DNA of 64,000 nucleotides from an uncultured Bradyrhizobium sp. (GTDB lineage: Bacteria; Pseudomonadota; Alphaproteobacteria; Rhizobiales; Xanthobacteraceae), in the NCBI RefSeq assembly GCF_947648125.1, contig NZ_CANSMR010000008.1:62001-126000 (forward strand). The letters are read 5' to 3'. Shown piece after piece: positions 55,812-63,009 of this stretch. The translations under genes and the position numbers were made by a program. The first letter of the stretch is position 1. Each line of letters begins with the position of its first letter. A model generated the notes under the pieces. It searched no databases. It was not told the DNA's origin and was given only the letters and a program-made list of their open reading frames with translations.

Positions 55812-57053
55812 TTAGCAGCGCGCCGGTTCGCCGACCATCTCGGGCTGCCGCCTGAGCGACACGGCCGGCGACATCAGTATCACCAGCGCCTGGGCGGCGA
55901 AGATCGCGGCTGCCAGGTAGAGGCAGGCTTCGGCGCCGTAGAGGCCACCGACGACGGCGCCGAGTGCGGAGCCGAGCGGGCGGGCGCCGTAGCTCATGAT
56001 GTTGATCGCGGAGACGCGGCCGAGCAGCGAGGGCGGCGTCACCGACTGCCGCAGCGTGGTGGTCGAGATCACCCACAGGATCGGACCGACGCCGAGCAGG
56101 AAGAAGCCGAGGCCCGCGAGCAGCGGCGTCGCAATCCAGGTCGTCAGTGCCATCACGAGCGAGGCGACGAGGCCGGTGACCGGGCCGAGCCCGATCACGG
56201 TGCCGAACGCCAGCCGCTTCATCACGCGGGTTGCGAACAGCGCGCCGACCACCATGCCGACGCCGTACATCGCGAGCGTCGTACCGACACCGGTGGCGCT
56301 GAGCCCGAGATGGCGCACCGCATAGGGCACGAACACGGCGAGCAGCAGGAAGGACGCGGTGTTAAAGATGAACTGGGTGACGAACACCGGCCGCAGCAAG
56401 GCGTGATGCATCACGAAGGCTGCGCCTTCCTTGATGTCCTGCAACGGATGACGCCGCGGGGCGGGCTGGCGCGCCGGCTCGTAGATGCCGGCGAGCAGCA
56501 CAACCGCGATCGCCGACAGCGCCGCGGCAAACCCGAATGCGGGCGCGGCACCGACCCAGCCGACCAGCACGCCGCCGAGCGCGGGGCCGCTGGCGAAAGC
56601 GACCGTGCGGGCAAGTTCGATGCGGGCATTCGCGGCCGGCAATTGCTGCGAGGTCACCAGCGAGGGGACCAGCGCAGGAGCTGCGACGCTATAGGCAACC
56701 GTGCCGCAGACCGCGATGAAGCCGAGCAAGGCGAGCAGCGGCAAGGTCATCGCGCCGAACCACAGCAACAGCAGGATCGCGGCAAGGGCCGCCGCGCGCA
56801 GCGCCTCGGAGCCCGCCATCACCCAGCGCCGCGACACGCGGTCGGCCAGCAAGCCGGCGGGAATCGCAAACAGGATGAAGGGCAGCGTCAGCGCGGTCTG
56901 CAACAGGCCGGTCTGGCCTTCGCCGACGCCGAGCACCAGCACGGCAACGATAGGCGCGGCAGCAAGCGCAATCTGCTCGGCCGATTGCGCGGCGAGGTTG
57001 GACCAGGCCAGGCGATTGAAGGTGGCGGGCAGGCGCGGCGTATCGGCGGACAT
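55812..57053 (-). CDS. MFS transporter (enterobactin exporter/drug-efflux-like)
   Basis: A 413-residue protein with twelve hydrophobic segments. FNRLAWSNLAAQSAEQIALAAAPIVAVLVLG opens it and GLLADRVSRRWVMAG is the loop 2-3 motif; the pattern fits the EntS/MFS_3 group of exporters. AAGGATTCTGCC precedes the ATG at 57053, which excludes a longer frame. It lies downstream of the flotillin operon on the same strand but is separated from it by a good terminator. Confidence 0.9.
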   Translation of the reverse strand: MSADTPRLPATFNRLAWSNLAAQSAEQIALAAAPIVAVLVLGVGEGQTGLLQTALTLPFILFAIPAGLLADRVSRRWVMAGSEALRAAALAAILLLLWFGAMTLPLLALLGFIAVCGTVAYSVAAPALVPSLVTSQQLPAANARIELARTVAFASGPALGGVLVGWVGAAPAFGFAAALSAIAVVLLAGIYEPARQPAPRRHPLQDIKEGAAFVMHHALLRPVFVTQFIFNTASFLLLAVFVPYAVRHLGLSATGVGTTLAMYGVGMVVGALFATRVMKRLAFGTVIGLGPVTGLVASLVMALTTWIATPLLAGLGFFLLGVGPILWVISTTTLRQSVTPPSLLGRVSAINIMSYGARPLGSALGAVVGGLYGAEACLYLAAAIFAAQALVILMSPAVSLRRQPEMVGEPARC

Positions 57054-57143
57054 GGCAGAATCCTTCAGGGATATTCGATCTGGCCATAGTGTGTGGTTGG
57101 AAGACGCCCGATCCCACCCGTTTCCCGACAACGCCAAAAACAA

Positions 57144-57167
57144 AGCCCGCCGTGAGAGGCGGGCCTT
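57144..57167 (-). terminator. Rho-independent terminator of the PspA-YqiJ-flotillin operon
   Basis: Read on the minus strand, GCCCGCC-N6-GGCGGGC is followed by TTTGTTTTTGG. It begins about 30 bases after the flotillin stop codon, so it ends that operon and isolates the MFS gene. Confidence 0.85.
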
Positions 57168-57196
57168 GTCACTGATCGCGGAGCGCGGTCACACCA

Positions 57197-58948
57197 TCAC
57201 GGTGTGGGTCCCGTAGCGAGCTGGCCGGTGATGGTGCCGACCAATGTGGCCGGTCGGTTGTCGTCGCCGGTTGCAGGCGCCGCGGAGACCTCCGTCTTGC
57301 GCTGCGCCAGCGCGCTGGTCAGGCTGGTGAGCGCGTCGGGGCCGGCCGGGAAGCCTGCCTCCGAAAGGATCTTGTCGATCATCGGCTTGAACGCCGAGAC
57401 CGACAGCAACTGCGCGGCGAGGCCGTCGCCGAGCCCAAGACCGCCATTGCCGTTAGCGTGGCCGTTGGCGCCGCCGCGGCCGAGCATGCTGCCGGTGTCG
57501 AAGATCCGGATGTCGGAGATCTTCTCGATCGGCTTCACCGCCTCGGCGAGCGCGCTCGGGATCACGTTGATCCGCGCGAGGTTGAGATCGTAGGCGATCA
57601 TGTCGGCGCTCAGCTTGTTGCGCGCCTCCGCCTTCAACGTCGCGACTTCCGCTTCGGCCTGGCCGAGCGCCTTGACGCCGGCGGCGCGGGTGGTGGCTGC
57701 GTTGGCGTCGGCTTTCGCCAGCACGTTGGTGGCCTCGGCCTTGTTGGCCGCAGCCTGCTTCTCGGCCTCCGCCATCACGGTGATCGGCATCGCATTGGTC
57801 TCGGCAACCTTGCGTGCCGCGATCACATTGATGATCTTGTCGCGCTCGGCGACCTCCGTGGCGCGGGCGGTGGTGACCTTTTCCTCCGCTGCGATCGCGA
57901 GTGCGCGTGCGGTCTCGGCGATGGTCTGGGCTTCCGACTGCTCCTTGCTCTTGGTCGCAACCGCGATCGCAGCCTCCTGCGCCACGATCTGCAGCTCGCG
58001 GTCGGTTTCAGTGGTGCGGCGCTTCACGGCGAGATCGGCCTCGATCTTGCGGGTGTCGCGGGCCTGGTTGGCCTCGGTCTGCTTGTTGGCGACCGCAAGC
58101 TCCTGCTGGATGCGATACTCGGCCTCGTTCTGCAACGCGGTCTGTTCGACCTGCGCGGTCTGCGCGCGCATCGCGGCGGTCTTGTTGGCGATGTCGCGCT
58201 GCTGTGCCAGCTCGGCCTCGCGCTTGGTGCTTTCGATCGTCAGCGTGGTCTGCCGCGCCACCAGATCCTGCTGGGCGATATTGACCTCGGTGGTGCGGAC
58301 GATCTGGTTGCGCTCCTGTTCGCGCTCCTTGGTGATCTTGGTCAGCGTGGTGAGGCCGTGCGCGTCGAAGAAGTTGCTCGGGTTGAAGTGCTTGATGTCG
58401 CTCTGGTCGAGCCGGGTCAGCGACACTGATTCAAGCTCGAGGCCGTTGTTCTGGATGTCGGCGCCGACCGCGTCCTGCACCGCCTTGACGAAGGTCGCGC
58501 GCTGCTCCTGCAACTCCTCGAGGTTCATGGTCGCGGCGACCGAGCGCAGGCCGTCGACGAACTTGGCCTCGACCAGCTCGCGGAGCTCGGCGGCGTCATT
58601 GGTGCGGTTGCCGAGCGTCTGCGCCGCCAGCGCAATCGACGAAGAGTCGGGTTTGACGCGCAGATAGAACTCGGCGCCGATGTCGACGCGCATGCGGTCC
58701 TTGGTGATCAGCGAGTCGGGGCCGCCGCGCGCGACCTCGAGCCGCAGCGTCTTCAGGTTCACCGCGGCGGTGGAGTGGAAGATCGGCAGCACGAGCGAGC
58801 CGCCGTCGAGCACCACCTTCTGGCCGCCGAGGCCGGTGCGGACATAGGCCTCGTCGCGCGTCGAGCGCTTGTAGAGTTTTGCGAAAAGCAGGCCAATGAC
58901 GAGGATAGCGAGGACGCCAATGGCGACCGGTATAGCAAGTTCCCACAT
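57197..58948 (-). CDS. Flotillin family protein (YqiK-like)
   Basis: The 583-residue protein has an N-terminal membrane anchor (LAIPVAIGVLAILVIGLLFAKLY), a band-7/SPFH domain (about 30-200) and a long alanine- and glutamate-rich coiled coil (about 210-470) with repeated KAEA/AEAE patterns. A Gly/Asn-rich linker (GRGGANGHANGNGGLGLGDG) near residue 500 precedes a short C-terminal domain. Flotillins form ring-like scaffolds at membrane microdomains. It is the third gene after the PspA fusion and the YqiJ-like gene (three-base gap), and the operon is closed by a terminator. The arrangement resembles yqiJ-yqiK of E. coli. Confidence 0.94.
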   Translation of the reverse strand: MWELAIPVAIGVLAILVIGLLFAKLYKRSTRDEAYVRTGLGGQKVVLDGGSLVLPIFHSTAAVNLKTLRLEVARGGPDSLITKDRMRVDIGAEFYLRVKPDSSSIALAAQTLGNRTNDAAELRELVEAKFVDGLRSVAATMNLEELQEQRATFVKAVQDAVGADIQNNGLELESVSLTRLDQSDIKHFNPSNFFDAHGLTTLTKITKEREQERNQIVRTTEVNIAQQDLVARQTTLTIESTKREAELAQQRDIANKTAAMRAQTAQVEQTALQNEAEYRIQQELAVANKQTEANQARDTRKIEADLAVKRRTTETDRELQIVAQEAAIAVATKSKEQSEAQTIAETARALAIAAEEKVTTARATEVAERDKIINVIAARKVAETNAMPITVMAEAEKQAAANKAEATNVLAKADANAATTRAAGVKALGQAEAEVATLKAEARNKLSADMIAYDLNLARINVIPSALAEAVKPIEKISDIRIFDTGSMLGRGGANGHANGNGGLGLGDGLAAQLLSVSAFKPMIDKILSEAGFPAGPDALTSLTSALAQRKTEVSAAPATGDDNRPATLVGTITGQLATGPTP

Positions 58949-58951
58949 ATG

Positions 58952-59614
58952 TTATGCCCTGTTGGAAGACTGTTGCTGTTCAATGAGGTCGGCGGGAGCG
59001 GCGATCGCGATGAAGCTCTTGGCGTCGCGGTCGACCAGCAACACGCTGGCGCCGACCGGCAACGCCTCGGACTCCGCGCTGGCACGCGCCGACACGGTGT
59101 GCCAGTTGCCGAAGACATCCTTGAGACGGACCCTGCCGGGCAGGCCCTGATCGAGCGGGCCGACCGACACGGTTGCGACCTTGCCGACAAAGTCACTGTC
59201 GTCGACCGCATAGCTCTCGTCGCGGGGAATGATGCGGGCGAGGCCGCGGCTCGCATTTCTGATCACGGGGACGCTGCCGGCGGCAGCAACCACCGCGGCA
59301 ATCGAGACCGGAATGGCGGTGCCTGCGGCATGCGCCAGTCCTTGAAGCAGGAAGCCTCCGATCGAGAATATGCCAAGTCTCAGGATGATCAGGATCAGGA
59401 GGGGAAGCCGCCCGGCGTTGATCCAGAGAAACAGGCCACTGAGAGCATTGTGGCTCTCGGCCTCGACCGCGAAATCCTTGCCGACGAGTTCGCTGATCGA
59501 AAGTCCGACCATGGTGGTCAGCAGCTCGATACCGCCAAGTGCCACCATGATCGCAGCCGCGACCGCGAAGGGCCGCACGTCCGGGGCGAGCAGAATGTCG
59601 CCAACTGCACTCAT
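58952..59614 (-). CDS. YqiJ-like membrane protein with OB-fold (NfeD-type)
   Basis: The 220-residue protein has three or so membrane segments (AVAAAIMVALGGIELLTTMVGL; LPLLILIILRLGIFSIGGFLL; IPVSIAAVVAAAGSV) and a C-terminal beta-rich OB-type domain (DSDFVGKVATVSVGPLDQGLPGRVRLKDVFGNWHTVSARAS). This matches the YqiJ/NfeD partners of flotillins. Its ATG overlaps the stop of the PspA fusion gene (ATGA), so the two are translationally coupled. It is expected to work with the flotillin in the inner membrane. Confidence 0.9.
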   Translation of the reverse strand: MSAVGDILLAPDVRPFAVAAAIMVALGGIELLTTMVGLSISELVGKDFAVEAESHNALSGLFLWINAGRLPLLILIILRLGIFSIGGFLLQGLAHAAGTAIPVSIAAVVAAAGSVPVIRNASRGLARIIPRDESYAVDDSDFVGKVATVSVGPLDQGLPGRVRLKDVFGNWHTVSARASAESEALPVGASVLLVDRDAKSFIAIAAPADLIEQQQSSNRA

Positions 59615-60741
59615 TTTTCTGACTTGATCCTTTCAAGCCGCGCCGCGATTTCCTTTTCACGGTGCAGGCGATCGAGTTCGTCAAGCTCCTTGTCGCCGAG
59701 CACGCTTGCAGCGGGAACACCGGTGACCCGGGCGATCGCCGCCATGGCGCGTTCGGCACTCAATGTATTGGTCGTCGATGGGGCCCGGCTGGTTTCGTCC
59801 TTGGCCTCGCGGATCAGACTTTGTTCGAGATCGGCCAATCGCGTCTCCGCTTCGCGGCGCGCGCCGAGCATGGCTTGCAGCGCCTTGGTCTGCTCGTCGA
59901 TTTCGAGCTCGATGAAATCCATCGCGCGTTCCAGCGCGATCACCTGCGACTCCAGGTCAATTTGCCGTGCGACACCGGCGCGCGCGAGATCCTCGCGATT
60001 TTCCGCAAGTGCGAGACGGATCTTCTCGTTCAGAGCAGTCGTCTCGGTATCCAGTTCTTCGCGCCGCCTCTTCAAGCGGAATTCCTCGGCGCGAGACTTG
60101 CCGAGCGCATAGCGCGCTTCGTCGGCGCCGGCGTCGATCTCGCGGATCGCCTGCTTGACCAGCGCGACCTTGTTGTTGCTCTCGACGTTGTCGATGGTCT
60201 GGCTCGCGATGGCGGCAAGAAGCCGGCCCATGCGCGCAAGGATGCCTTCGTGAAGCATGGTCTTCTCCTCCGGTTGTGCTGATTTCGATTTGACGGCGAT
60301 GTGGATTTCGTAGCCGCGTCCATCCGAGATCAAATGTGCCGGGAAGGGGCTTTCCCAGCCCGAGACATATCCCGGCACGTCGAACGGCACCAAGACGCGT
60401 CCGCCGACAGTGCTAATGGTCAGTGAAGTTGGACCCTTGATCGCAAACAACTTGTCGTCGAGCGGTATCCGGCGGACGGCGGCGCCTGCGATGTAGTTGG
60501 CGCGGTCGCGCAGGCCGAGCGTCACCAGCCGCGCGGGCAGGCCGGTCTCCTTGCGGATCTTCTCGTAAGCCTGGGCATGCAGCGAGACGAGGTTGGCGCC
60601 GACGGGGGCGACCTCGGCGAGGATCGCCATCATCCGGTCATAGGCCGCAAAGGTCGCCTCGATCGCCTCGATGCCCGACGGGTCGGGGGCGAGGGCGTAG
60701 CGCAGCGTTGCGGTTGGCGTCTCGACGGGCAGCTTGATCAT
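59611..60741 (-). CDS. PspA/IM30 protein with an N-terminal TnpB-like domain
   Basis: A 376-residue protein. Residues 163-310 are a PspA/IM30 coiled coil (MGRLLAAIASQTIDN; KVALVKQAIREIDAG; the AENREDLARAGVARQIDLE motif matches the 'RKDKDDLARAAL' segment of PspA). PspA forms membrane-repair assemblies under envelope stress. Residues 1-152 are foreign to that family: YEKIRKETGLPARL, LRDRANYIAGA, DDKLFAIKG, SLTISTVGGRVLVPF, and HLISDGRGYEIHIAV follow the order seen before the RuvC domain of IS605-type TnpB proteins. No RuvC or zinc finger is present. GGAGGAG lies ahead of an internal ATG (Met162, base 60258), at the exact domain border, so a free 215-residue PspA may also be made. The first start is weak: ATG 60741 has only GAGG one base away. 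It is the first gene of the flotillin operon. Confidence 0.82.
   Translation of the reverse strand: MIKLPVETPTATLRYALAPDPSGIEAIEATFAAYDRMMAILAEVAPVGANLVSLHAQAYEKIRKETGLPARLVTLGLRDRANYIAGAAVRRIPLDDKLFAIKGPTSLTISTVGGRVLVPFDVPGYVSGWESPFPAHLISDGRGYEIHIAVKSKSAQPEEKTMLHEGILARMGRLLAAIASQTIDNVESNNKVALVKQAIREIDAGADEARYALGKSRAEEFRLKRRREELDTETTALNEKIRLALAENREDLARAGVARQIDLESQVIALERAMDFIELEIDEQTKALQAMLGARREAETRLADLEQSLIREAKDETSRAPSTTNTLSAERAMAAIARVTGVPAASVLGDKELDELDRLHREKEIAARLERIKSEK
60258..60271 (-). promoter_or_regulatory. Internal ribosome-binding site and start for a short PspA form
   Basis: The minus strand reads GGAGGAGAAGACC then ATG at 60258-60256, a near-consensus Shine-Dalgarno seven bases before Met162 of the fusion. 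It is much better than the site before the first ATG. Translation from here gives a normal-length PspA (215 residues) starting MLHEGILARMGRLL. Confidence 0.7.
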
Positions 60742-60750
60742 GCCTCTAAC

Positions 60751-60775
60751 GTAAAGCACTTCCTCAGTACTTTAC
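60751..60775. promoter_or_regulatory. 25-bp near-palindrome upstream of the PspA fusion operon
   Basis: GTAAAGCACT-N5-AGTACTTTAC is an inverted repeat with nine of ten bases matched per arm, nine bases before the ATG at 60741. It probably overlaps the promoter or transcription start, the position of a repressor operator. No regulator gene is adjacent. Confidence 0.65.
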
Positions 60776-60816
60776 AAGGTGGGTGGCCGGTATCATTTTC
60801 GTGAACCTAGATGCAG

Positions 60817-60833
60817 TTGCAAATGAGTTGCAA
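60817..60833. promoter_or_regulatory. Mur/Fur-like operator upstream of mntH
   Basis: TTGCAAATGAGTTGCAA is a 17-bp palindrome made of two TTGCAA units, 29 bp before the mntH start. Manganese-responsive Mur (Fur) sites before mntH and sit genes of rhizobia are, as I recall, palindromes of TTGCAA/TGCAAATT type. Repression of mntH under high manganese is the natural inference. Confidence 0.65.
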
Positions 60834-60862
60834 TAACGGGAGAGATCGGCCATCCTTCGGGG

Positions 60863-62236
60863 ATGGACGCTCGTACCCCTGAAATGTCTCCCGTTTCCGT
60901 TGCCGACACCGTGCCAGGTGGCTGGCGGGGCGATGCCGGCCATACGCGCAGCCTGCCCGAGGTGAACGCGACTGTTGCGGTGCCGAGCGCAGGCGTGTGG
61001 TGGCGGCGCCTGCTGGCCTTCGCCGGGCCGGGCTACCTAGTCTCGGTCGGCTATATGGACCCCGGCAATTGGGCGACCGATCTCGCGGGTGGATCGAAGT
61101 TTGGCTACACGCTGCTGTCGGTCATCCTGCTCTCCAACCTGATGGCGATCCTGCTGCAGGCGCTTTCGGCCCGGCTTGGCATCGCGACCGACCGCGACCT
61201 GGCGCAGGCCTGCCGCGCGATCTATTCGCGGCCGGTGAATTTGCTGTTGTGGCTCGCCTGCGAGGCCGCGATCATCGCCTGCGACCTCGCCGAAGTGATC
61301 GGCACCGCGATCGCGCTGAAGCTGCTGTTCGGCATTCCCTTGATCGGCGGCGCGCTGCTGGCGGCGCTCGATGCGTTCCTGCTGCTGCTCCTGATGAACC
61401 GCGGCTTCCGCTTCCTCGAGGCCTTCGTGATTGCGCTGCTGATCGTCATCGCGGTCTGCTTTGTGGTCCAGATCACCGCCGCCGCGCCGCCGATTGCCGG
61501 CGTGATCGGCGGCTTCATGCCCTCGCGCGAGATCGTCACCAATCCGGAGATGCTCTACATCGCGATCGGCATCATCGGCGCCACCGTGATGCCGCATAAC
61601 CTCTATCTGCACTCATCGATCGTGCAGACCCGCGCCTATCCGCGCACCGAGGAAGGGCGGCGCGATGCGATCAAATGGGCGACCACCGACTCCACTATCG
61701 CGCTGATGCTGGCGCTGTTCGTCAACGCCGCGATCCTGGTGCTGGCGGCTGCGACCTTCCACAAGAGCGGCCACTCTGATGTCGCCGAGATCGACCAGGC
61801 CTTCGAGCTGCTGTCGCCGCTGCTCGGCCTTGGCATCGCCTCGACGCTGTTTGCCGTGGCGCTGCTGGCGTCCGGCCTCAACTCGACGGTGACGGCGACG
61901 CTGGCCGGCCAGATCGTGATGCAGGGCTTTCTCGACCTCAAGCTACCCGACTGGCTGCAGCGGCTGGTAACCCGCGGCATCGCGATCGTTCCGGTCATCG
62001 TGGTGGCGGCGCTCTATGGCGAGAGCGGCACCGCGCAGCTGCTCGTGTTCAGCCAGGTCGTGCTGTCGATGCAGCTGCCGTTCGCGGTGATCCCGCTGGT
62101 GCGCTTCGTGTCCGACAAGCGCAAGATGGGCGCGTTCGCGATCTCGCGCCCCGTTGCGATAGCGGCGTGGATCGTGGCCGGCCTGATCGTGATCCTGAAC
62201 GTGAAGCTGCTGATCGATACGATCTTCGGTACCTAA
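60863..62236 (+). CDS. mntH: Manganese transporter of the NRAMP family
   Basis: The 457-residue protein has eleven hydrophobic segments and the NRAMP metal motifs DPGNWATD in helix 1 and [15 protein letters not shown] in helix 6. It imports Mn(II) (and Fe(II)) with protons. The ~45-residue N-terminal tail before the first helix is longer than usual; ATG at 60884 is an alternative start. A palindrome of Mur/Fur type lies in the promoter. Its stop overlaps the convergent bpt gene by three bases. Confidence 0.95.
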
Positions 62237-63009
62237 TCCTGCGGCTCGGCCAGCGCCTCACCTGACGCGTCGACGCGCAGCCAGCCCGATGGCGCGAGCC
62301 GCTGCTGCGGCAGGAAGCGGCCCTTGTAGTCCATCTTCTTGGAGCCCTCGATCCAATAGCCGAGATAGACGTAGGGCAGGCCCTGTCGGCGGGCGCGGGC
62401 GATATGATCGAGGATCATGAAGGTGCCGAGCGAGCGGGCCTCAAGCCCCGGCTCGAAGAAGGAATAGACCATCGACAGCCCGTCGCTGAGCACGTCGGTC
62501 AGCGCCACCGCCATCAGCTCGTCGCCGCGGCCGGTGATGGCGCTGTCGGCATTGCGCTTGCGGTACTCGATGATCCGGGTCTCGACATGGCTGTCCTCGA
62601 CCATCATCGCATAGTCGAGCACGGTCATGTCGGCCATGCCGCCGTTGCGGTGGCGGCGGTCGAGATAGGCGCGGAAGACCGAGTATTGCTCGGAGGTCGG
62701 CACCGCCGTGCGCTGCTCGCCGATGATGTCGGCGTTGCGGGCCAGCACCTTGCGGAAATTGCGGGAGGGGCGGAATTCGTTGGCGACCACCCGGACCGAG
62801 ACGCAGGCCCGGCAGGCGTCGCAGGCCGGGCGGTAGGCTATCGACTGGCTGCGGCGGAAGCCGCCATGGGTCAGCAAGTCGTTGAGATCGCCCGCTTTGT
62901 CGCCGACCAGGTGCGTGAAAACCTTCCGCTCATGCCGGCCCGGCAGATACGGGCAGGGGGAGGGCGCCGTCAGATAGAACTGGGGGGTATCACGCGAGTG
63001 TTGGGTCAC
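62233..63009 (-). CDS. bpt: Aspartate/glutamate leucyltransferase (bacterial N-end rule)
   Basis: The 258-residue protein is of the ATE1-like Bpt family: [17 protein letters not shown], then [25 protein letters not shown] with the conserved cysteines, and [26 protein letters not shown] near the end. Bpt adds leucine to proteins with N-terminal Asp or Glu, marking them for ClpS-ClpAP. It is convergent with mntH and shares its strand with the RDD gene 86 bp upstream. Confidence 0.94.

Follow-up and report, generated by a model that had tools for sequence, protein, structure and literature searches.

What would a transposon-type protein that has lost its nuclease be doing at the head of a membrane-stress operon? 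A locus in an uncultured Bradyrhizobium sp. raises this question. Within the window, by which we mean the whole stretch of 64,000 nt that was analyzed, a minus-strand gene (59611..60741; ATG at 60741, stop ending at 59611) encodes 376 amino acids, in which the open reading frame, Pfam, profile searches and predicted fold distinguish a TnpB-type WED-REC-WED half followed by a PspA/IM30 half. Downstream on the same strand lie yqiJ (58952..59614; YqiJ_N and YqiJ_OB both above cut-off), whose start overlaps the fusion stop in an ATGA, and, adjacent to it, a flotillin gene (57197..58948; Band_7 and Flot both above the Pfam cut-off). Profile and fold matches, Pfam and gene order bear out the preliminary description, which from the letters alone had proposed a nuclease-less TnpB-like half joined to PspA in the first gene of an operon with yqiJ and flotillin. 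We propose, at a probability of roughly 60%, that the TnpB half reads an operator without a guide and so places the PspA-YqiJ-flotillin operon under autoregulation, and that the gene gives rise to both the fusion and a free PspA.

The two halves differ in how readily they are recognized. PspA_IM30 (PF04012) covers residues 166 to 293 of the fusion (E=1.2e-10; score 41.9 bits, cut-off 33.9), a score that places the coiled coil in the PspA/IM30 family, and the full-length model, which is of moderate confidence (pLDDT 73.6, pTM 0.41), contains two long helices at 188 to 246 and 250 to 315. The one PADLOC match, LeoA (E=0.0054), falls on the coiled coil, and a reading of the gene as a defense system was rejected. 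Residues 1 to 157 (60271..60741, minus strand) consist of a strand (11 to 17), three REC-like helices (21 to 44, 51 to 66 and 70 to 82) and six WED-like strands between 90 and 151. Searched alone, residues 1 to 156 had no Pfam match at E<=10 and only sub-threshold NCBIfam matches, the best at E=0.0037 and 16.5 bits against a cut-off of 400.

The preliminary description had likened this first part to the region ahead of RuvC in TnpB and had suggested that residues 1 to about 155 be compared with TnpB WED/REC domains by profile and by fold; matches were found by both routes. When a divergent family member served as tblastn query, TnpBs came up with E-values of 4e-5 and 9e-3, and a free-standing N-terminal half of a TnpB with one of 2e-3. 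A profile of 15 family members gave scores of 58, 47 and 21 bits for three TnpBs and of 62 bits for the free-standing half, and all of these matches except that of the 21-bit TnpB span most of the pre-RuvC region. In a single hhalign comparison, 13 fusions matched nine halves of TnpBs of the kind found by sequence, which we take to be IS1341-like, at E=7.1e-21 over 148 columns. The AlphaFold model of the TnpB half (pLDDT 86) aligned by VIA-align with TnpB, Cas12, Fanzor or TranC in 50 of 50 rows, and the first 20 Foldseek matches to the PDB were all TnpB, Cas12, Fanzor2 or TranC, one of them at E<=0.001. The WED-REC-WED fold that precedes RuvC in TnpB is thus found in the N-terminal half by profile, AlphaFold, Foldseek and VIA-align. 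Neither the window sequence by itself nor a 15-row profile of the N-terminal half found a TnpB among PDB sequences, and direct hhalign of the family against ISDra2-like TnpBs gave no match; because these direct searches saw no TnpB, the link in sequence passes via IS1341-like TnpBs and the link to ISDra2 via the fold, and detecting the relationship at all takes divergent members, IS1341-like TnpBs or structure. A CesT/Tir reading of this half, prompted by PMC11237479, found no CesT/Tir entry among the fold matches listed. Alignments and predicted structures together show the N-terminal half to be a captured TnpB WED-REC module.

With the TnpB of IS200/IS605-type elements, the fusion thus shares the whole pre-RuvC half (beta1, REC helices and WED barrel), in sequence and in fold. 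It differs in being trimmed after the last REC helix, joined to PspA and fixed in one operon. A TnpB proper carries RuvC with its D-E-D site and a TNB zinc ribbon; both domains (PF01385 and PF07282) are absent from the fusion in a Pfam scan in which two full TnpBs, P0002 and P0006, match both, and the chain runs on into PspA instead. The net charge of the TnpB half is about neutral in the family (median +2; 0 in the window), compared with +4 to +16 in five of six TnpB halves and -14 in the sixth, which is haloarchaeal; this counts against the proposed operator reading.

The gene belongs to a family, collected here as 128 genes encoding 120 distinct proteins, whose association with the operon is strict. 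The survey of the link to yqiJ that the preliminary description had called for found yqiJ after the gene in all 128 loci, and flotillin is present in each of the 85 that have at least 1,500 bases downstream. Family members occur in 17 of 41 close relatives (the genome of the window included), at class level in 6 of 385 genomes, at phylum level in 9 of 398 and at order level in 15 of 297, in 2 of 96, 9 of 101 and 6 of 110 genomes around three other members, and in 8 of 75 and 4 of 17 genomes of two taxonomic families, these genome sets overlapping. A scan of named genomes gave 117 candidate stretches that code for a relative. All of the 80 retained are intact frames (373 to 400 amino acids), and 77 come from records titled Bradyrhizobium. 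Shinella, Bosea, Rhizobium and Agrobacterium carry members on plasmids. Five such loci were inspected; in each, yqiJ-like and flotillin genes lie downstream, and the fusion, yqiJ and flotillin are the only genes common to all five. One member (L198) has lost its PspA half and retains the TnpB half, with Arg at position 71; a perfect AAAGCACC..GGTGCTTT lies ahead of it, and yqiJ and then a flotillin-like frame lie directly behind. This gene order indicates that the TnpB half belongs with the operon and the upstream site even without PspA.

That upstream site is a dyad. In the window it spans 21 bp (60753..60773), reads AAAGTACT-gagga-AGTGCTTT on the minus strand, and lies 11 bp ahead of the start codon as the putative operator. 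Across the family, AAAGCAC-N7-GTGCTTT or a variant stands 10 to 12 bases before the start codon in 126 of 127 genes and at a distance of 2 in the remaining one (L194). These counts leave out L103 (in genome G376), a Gln71 member with no dyad at the usual place although fusion and yqiJ are retained, and its regulation may differ. The palindrome is close to private to this promoter: of the 17 gene-bearing genomes among the 41 relatives, 16 carry a perfect copy, always directly upstream of the gene, and the genome of the window has one with a single mismatch (AAAGTAC in one arm). Imperfect matches away from the gene occur at 7 places in the 41 genomes, no more often than matches to a reversed control pattern. 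A perfect copy was also found in 1 of the 24 gene-less genomes (G031; L152), beside unrelated genes; having no family gene next to it, it was taken as a chance occurrence.

Over the 127 genes, no change is seen at arm positions 1, 2 and 6, and position 4 is G:C in 125, although conservation of the outer positions is somewhat inflated because the dyad finder favors AAAG/CTTT ends. Position 5 varies, with C:G in 98 genes, T:G in 13, G:C in 7, T:A in 5 and C:A in 4. Promoter-like hexamers can be placed at both dyad arms, and a -10-like hexamer ending 6 to 8 nt before the start codon can be placed in 117 of 126 genes, a spacing that is partly built in because the scan was limited to right-arm hexamers, with no shuffled control. 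A consensus promoter scan of the window found no promoter, and a TTG precedes the left arm in just 76 of 127 genes.

The variation at position 5 follows one residue of the TnpB half. In three MAFFT modes, residue 71, an Arg in the window (codon 60529..60531, minus strand) and the second residue of the last REC-like helix, falls on F77 of ISDra2 TnpB, next to K76. In that protein, WED and REC bind the TAM duplex and K76, F77 and Q80 are among the TAM contacts (PMC10097598). Arg71 is found in 108 of the 120 distinct proteins, and ahead of their genes position 5 is C:G in both arms in 91 cases, in one arm in 16 and in neither in 1 (L043, the odd case, with T:A in both arms). Not one of the 12 Gln71 proteins goes with C:G; seven have G:C, four T:A, and the last is L103, which lacks a proper dyad. 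When operators were classed by C:G in at least one arm and L103 was left out, residue 71 came first among the 1,766 column-letter splits of the full-length protein (phi 0.94 in 37 representatives), ahead of K102/R102 (phi 0.88, two changes).

On a tree built without the residue-71 helix, parts of which are unsure because several branches are long, Arg/Gln changes three times and the operator class four times, the extra change being L043. L179, beside an Arg clade, has Gln with G:C, and L194 and L198, among Gln rows, have Arg with C:G. On the starred branches the operator class changes in the same direction as the residue in 2 of 2 independent pairs, a sample in which a sign test (p 0.5) cannot reach 0.05 since there are too few Arg/Gln switches; a third pair, in the full tree, is read as going the same way. 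At the corresponding position, the 14 TnpB halves compared have Gln (8), Asn (4), His (1) or Phe (1); Gln being common there, Gln71 may be the ancestral state. From the palindrome and this covariation we infer that the TnpB half binds the palindrome.

The fusion gene also appears to hold a second start. A Met at the usual PspA start is present in all 127 collected genes that have a PspA half, identified as the Met closest ahead of the LxRxG core and set by hand in L194. In the window it is Met162, the proposed internal start of a free PspA of 215 amino acids (59611..60258, minus strand), and it is preceded by the Shine-Dalgarno sequence GGAGGAG (60265..60271). GGAGGAG, AAGGAGG or a similar sequence recurs at this place in the family despite differing encoded residues (PEEKT, EEENA, KEKT, EGEHT, KKEAS). 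Pairing with the 16S tail at the internal Met reaches a duplex energy of -6 kcal/mol or lower in 118 of 119 distinct genes, with a weaker value of -5.6 in L178; at the first start it does so in none of the 119. In 12 diverse genes the internal signal takes a rank between 2nd and 21st among some 370 positions, and synonymous shuffles of 12 genes show it to be unexceptional given the amino acids (P 0.2 to 0.79), so that it is written in the amino acids themselves; the case for it is its persistence over differing residues together with the conserved Met. These start signals and the tentative promoter spacing suggest that the first start is leaderless and that free PspA is started internally, and we propose that the gene makes both proteins. 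Leaderless translation occurs in alphaproteobacteria, and a precedent for the internal start is Cas11, a small effector subunit made in this way.

Taken together, these features suggest the following model. Loss of the RuvC/TNB nuclease half would have removed much of the surface that contacts guide RNA, leaving the fold that in TnpB forms the cleft reading the TAM in double-stranded DNA and that may bind DNA here as well. Two TnpB halves, acting as a pair, would read the two half-sites of the palindrome upstream of their own gene and would thereby cover or block the promoter, making the fusion an autoregulator, most likely a repressor, of the PspA-YqiJ-flotillin membrane-stress operon. Translation of a single mRNA probably begins at two places: at the first AUG, which has no ribosome-binding site and may be leaderless, to give the fusion, and at the internal Shine-Dalgarno start, to give free PspA. 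More speculatively, membrane damage might draw the PspA part into membrane-bound polymers, thereby releasing the fusion from the operator and turning the operon on.

The same palindrome could be explained as an RNA hairpin in the mRNA leader that the TnpB half binds, so regulating translation from the first start codon. Symmetric arm changes do keep pairing, T:G arms, which form a wobble pair in RNA, outnumber C:A arms (13 against 4 of 127), and this half of TnpB touches guide RNA as well. However, pairing alone would permit compensated change at positions that are in fact fixed (1, 2 and 6) or almost so (4), and the finder anchor, which favors positions 1 to 4, does not favor the invariant position 6. 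The -10-like hexamer 6 to 8 nt before the start in 117 of 126 genes, its spacing partly built in, would moreover leave the dyad untranscribed, and the base-specific TAM reading of TnpB is of duplex DNA (PMC10097598). Because letters, and not pairing, are kept, we consider the hairpin unlikely. To a similar degree we doubt that an unlinked transcription factor acts on the palindrome and that the TnpB half serves in protein interaction or assembly, like the CesT/Tir-like chaperones of other PspA-band-7-YqiJ operons. CesT/Tir-PspA operons with band-7/flotillin and YqiJ genes are indeed described (PMC11237479), and the near-neutral charge of the TnpB half would suit such a role, yet an unlinked factor would hardly account for a palindrome that is practically unique to this promoter in 41 genomes and tracks the gene across families, for five plasmid loci sharing only fusion, yqiJ and flotillin, for a TnpB half that outlives PspA in L198, or for residue 71 of that half being the best-covarying column; the near-uniqueness of the site and residue 71 weigh most against it.

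The preliminary description had itself suggested that the domain still holds guide RNA, or senses phage or other foreign nucleic acid, and signals to PspA at the membrane. The WED of ISDra2 TnpB does bind omegaRNA stem 4, and the RuvC half contacts stems 1, 2 and 3a; the pseudoknot is bound by both (PMC10097598). That RuvC half is gone from the fusion, Rfam over 57000-62300 gave two sub-threshold matches and none above the gathering score (a suitable Rfam family may not exist), no defense-system model was convincing, and covariation with the gene's own upstream DNA requires no foreign ligand. The suggestion is therefore not supported, and of the rival explanations it has the least support and strikes us as very improbable. 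The palindrome, its covariation with a residue that aligns with a TAM contact of TnpB, and the PspA start inside the gene favor autoregulation through the operator over guide RNA.

TnpB and Cas12 are known as RNA-guided proteins, and the protein itself reads just the short TAM. Domesticated TnpBs that regulate transcription are exemplified by the TldRs, TnpB-like nuclease-dead repressors which have an inactivated RuvC and repress by guide RNA (PMC13418256). Regulation is demonstrated there and would be a shared property of the fusion, but TldRs retain a RuvC fold that is catalytically dead, with guide RNA and DNA binding, whereas the fusion has no RuvC and its specificity apparently lies in the protein, at residue 71; the covariation argues that it is read by the protein rather than by a guide RNA. 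The CesT/Tir-PspA operons of PMC11237479 resemble the present one in combining PspA, a flotillin-type band-7 protein and YqiJ, but the partner there is a separate CesT/Tir-like chaperone gene; the word transposase is absent from the main text of that paper, which is not among the papers mentioning both TnpB and PspA. Among the open-licence PMC papers that the searches listed, judged by title and the start of the abstract, none describes a TnpB-PspA fusion or a RuvC-less TnpB regulator.

In the enterobacterial psp operon, PspA inhibits a separate activator, PspF. The engagement of PspA is tied to control of its own operon in both cases, with the difference that the PspA of the fusion would carry its own DNA reader. 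We think it somewhat likelier than an even chance that the family represents a guide-free transcription-factor lineage within the TnpB/Cas12 superfamily, in which the TAM-reading WED-REC cleft became the operator reader of a two-isoform PspA switch with R71/Q71 as its specificity code, and of which free-standing halves may be members. If the WED-REC half alone reads DNA, the TAM-binding module would be a portable DNA-binding domain with readable specificity residues, and its domestication would have followed a route distinct from those of TldR and CRISPR-Cas12. If the model is true, it would also describe a Psp-type membrane response whose ESCRT-III-like effector doubles as its own transcription factor, and its code could be tested by paired exchanges of R71 and the operator.

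Several further observations concern the neighborhood and relatives of the gene. The dyad lies inside a 121-bp gap (60742-60862) between the fusion gene and a divergent gene (60863-62236), presumably encoding an Nramp-like transporter, so that in the genome of the window it could control that gene as well; the five plasmid loci inspected have no such divergent neighbor. The same genome carries a second, ordinary unfused PspA-family gene of about 239 amino acids (L210; C12:110437-111114) and has no TnpB match to TIGR01766, a model matched in 11 of 142 genomes of the class. Outside Alphaproteobacteria, where other phyla were covered by a pattern scan of named genomes and by plasmid and phage records, no members were found except in one record named Frankia sp. 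RB7 (L083; JAUEPE010000003.1), whose locus is typical of Bradyrhizobium and which is probably misnamed or a mixed assembly; the phage records gave seven matches, the best at E=0.6. On Allomeiothermus silvanus plasmid pMESIL01, a frame annotated as a hypothetical protein (H38; L142:2486-3010) is a TnpB frame ending at the first RuvC residues and looks like a broken TnpB gene. Two free-standing RuvC-less TnpB halves, on plasmids of Thermobacillus composti (L133:2498-3025) and Paenibacillus rhizovicinus (L141:3489-4028), are 176 and 180 amino acids long, share 53% identity, are annotated as hypothetical and lie among plasmid genes, and they represent a possible second domestication.
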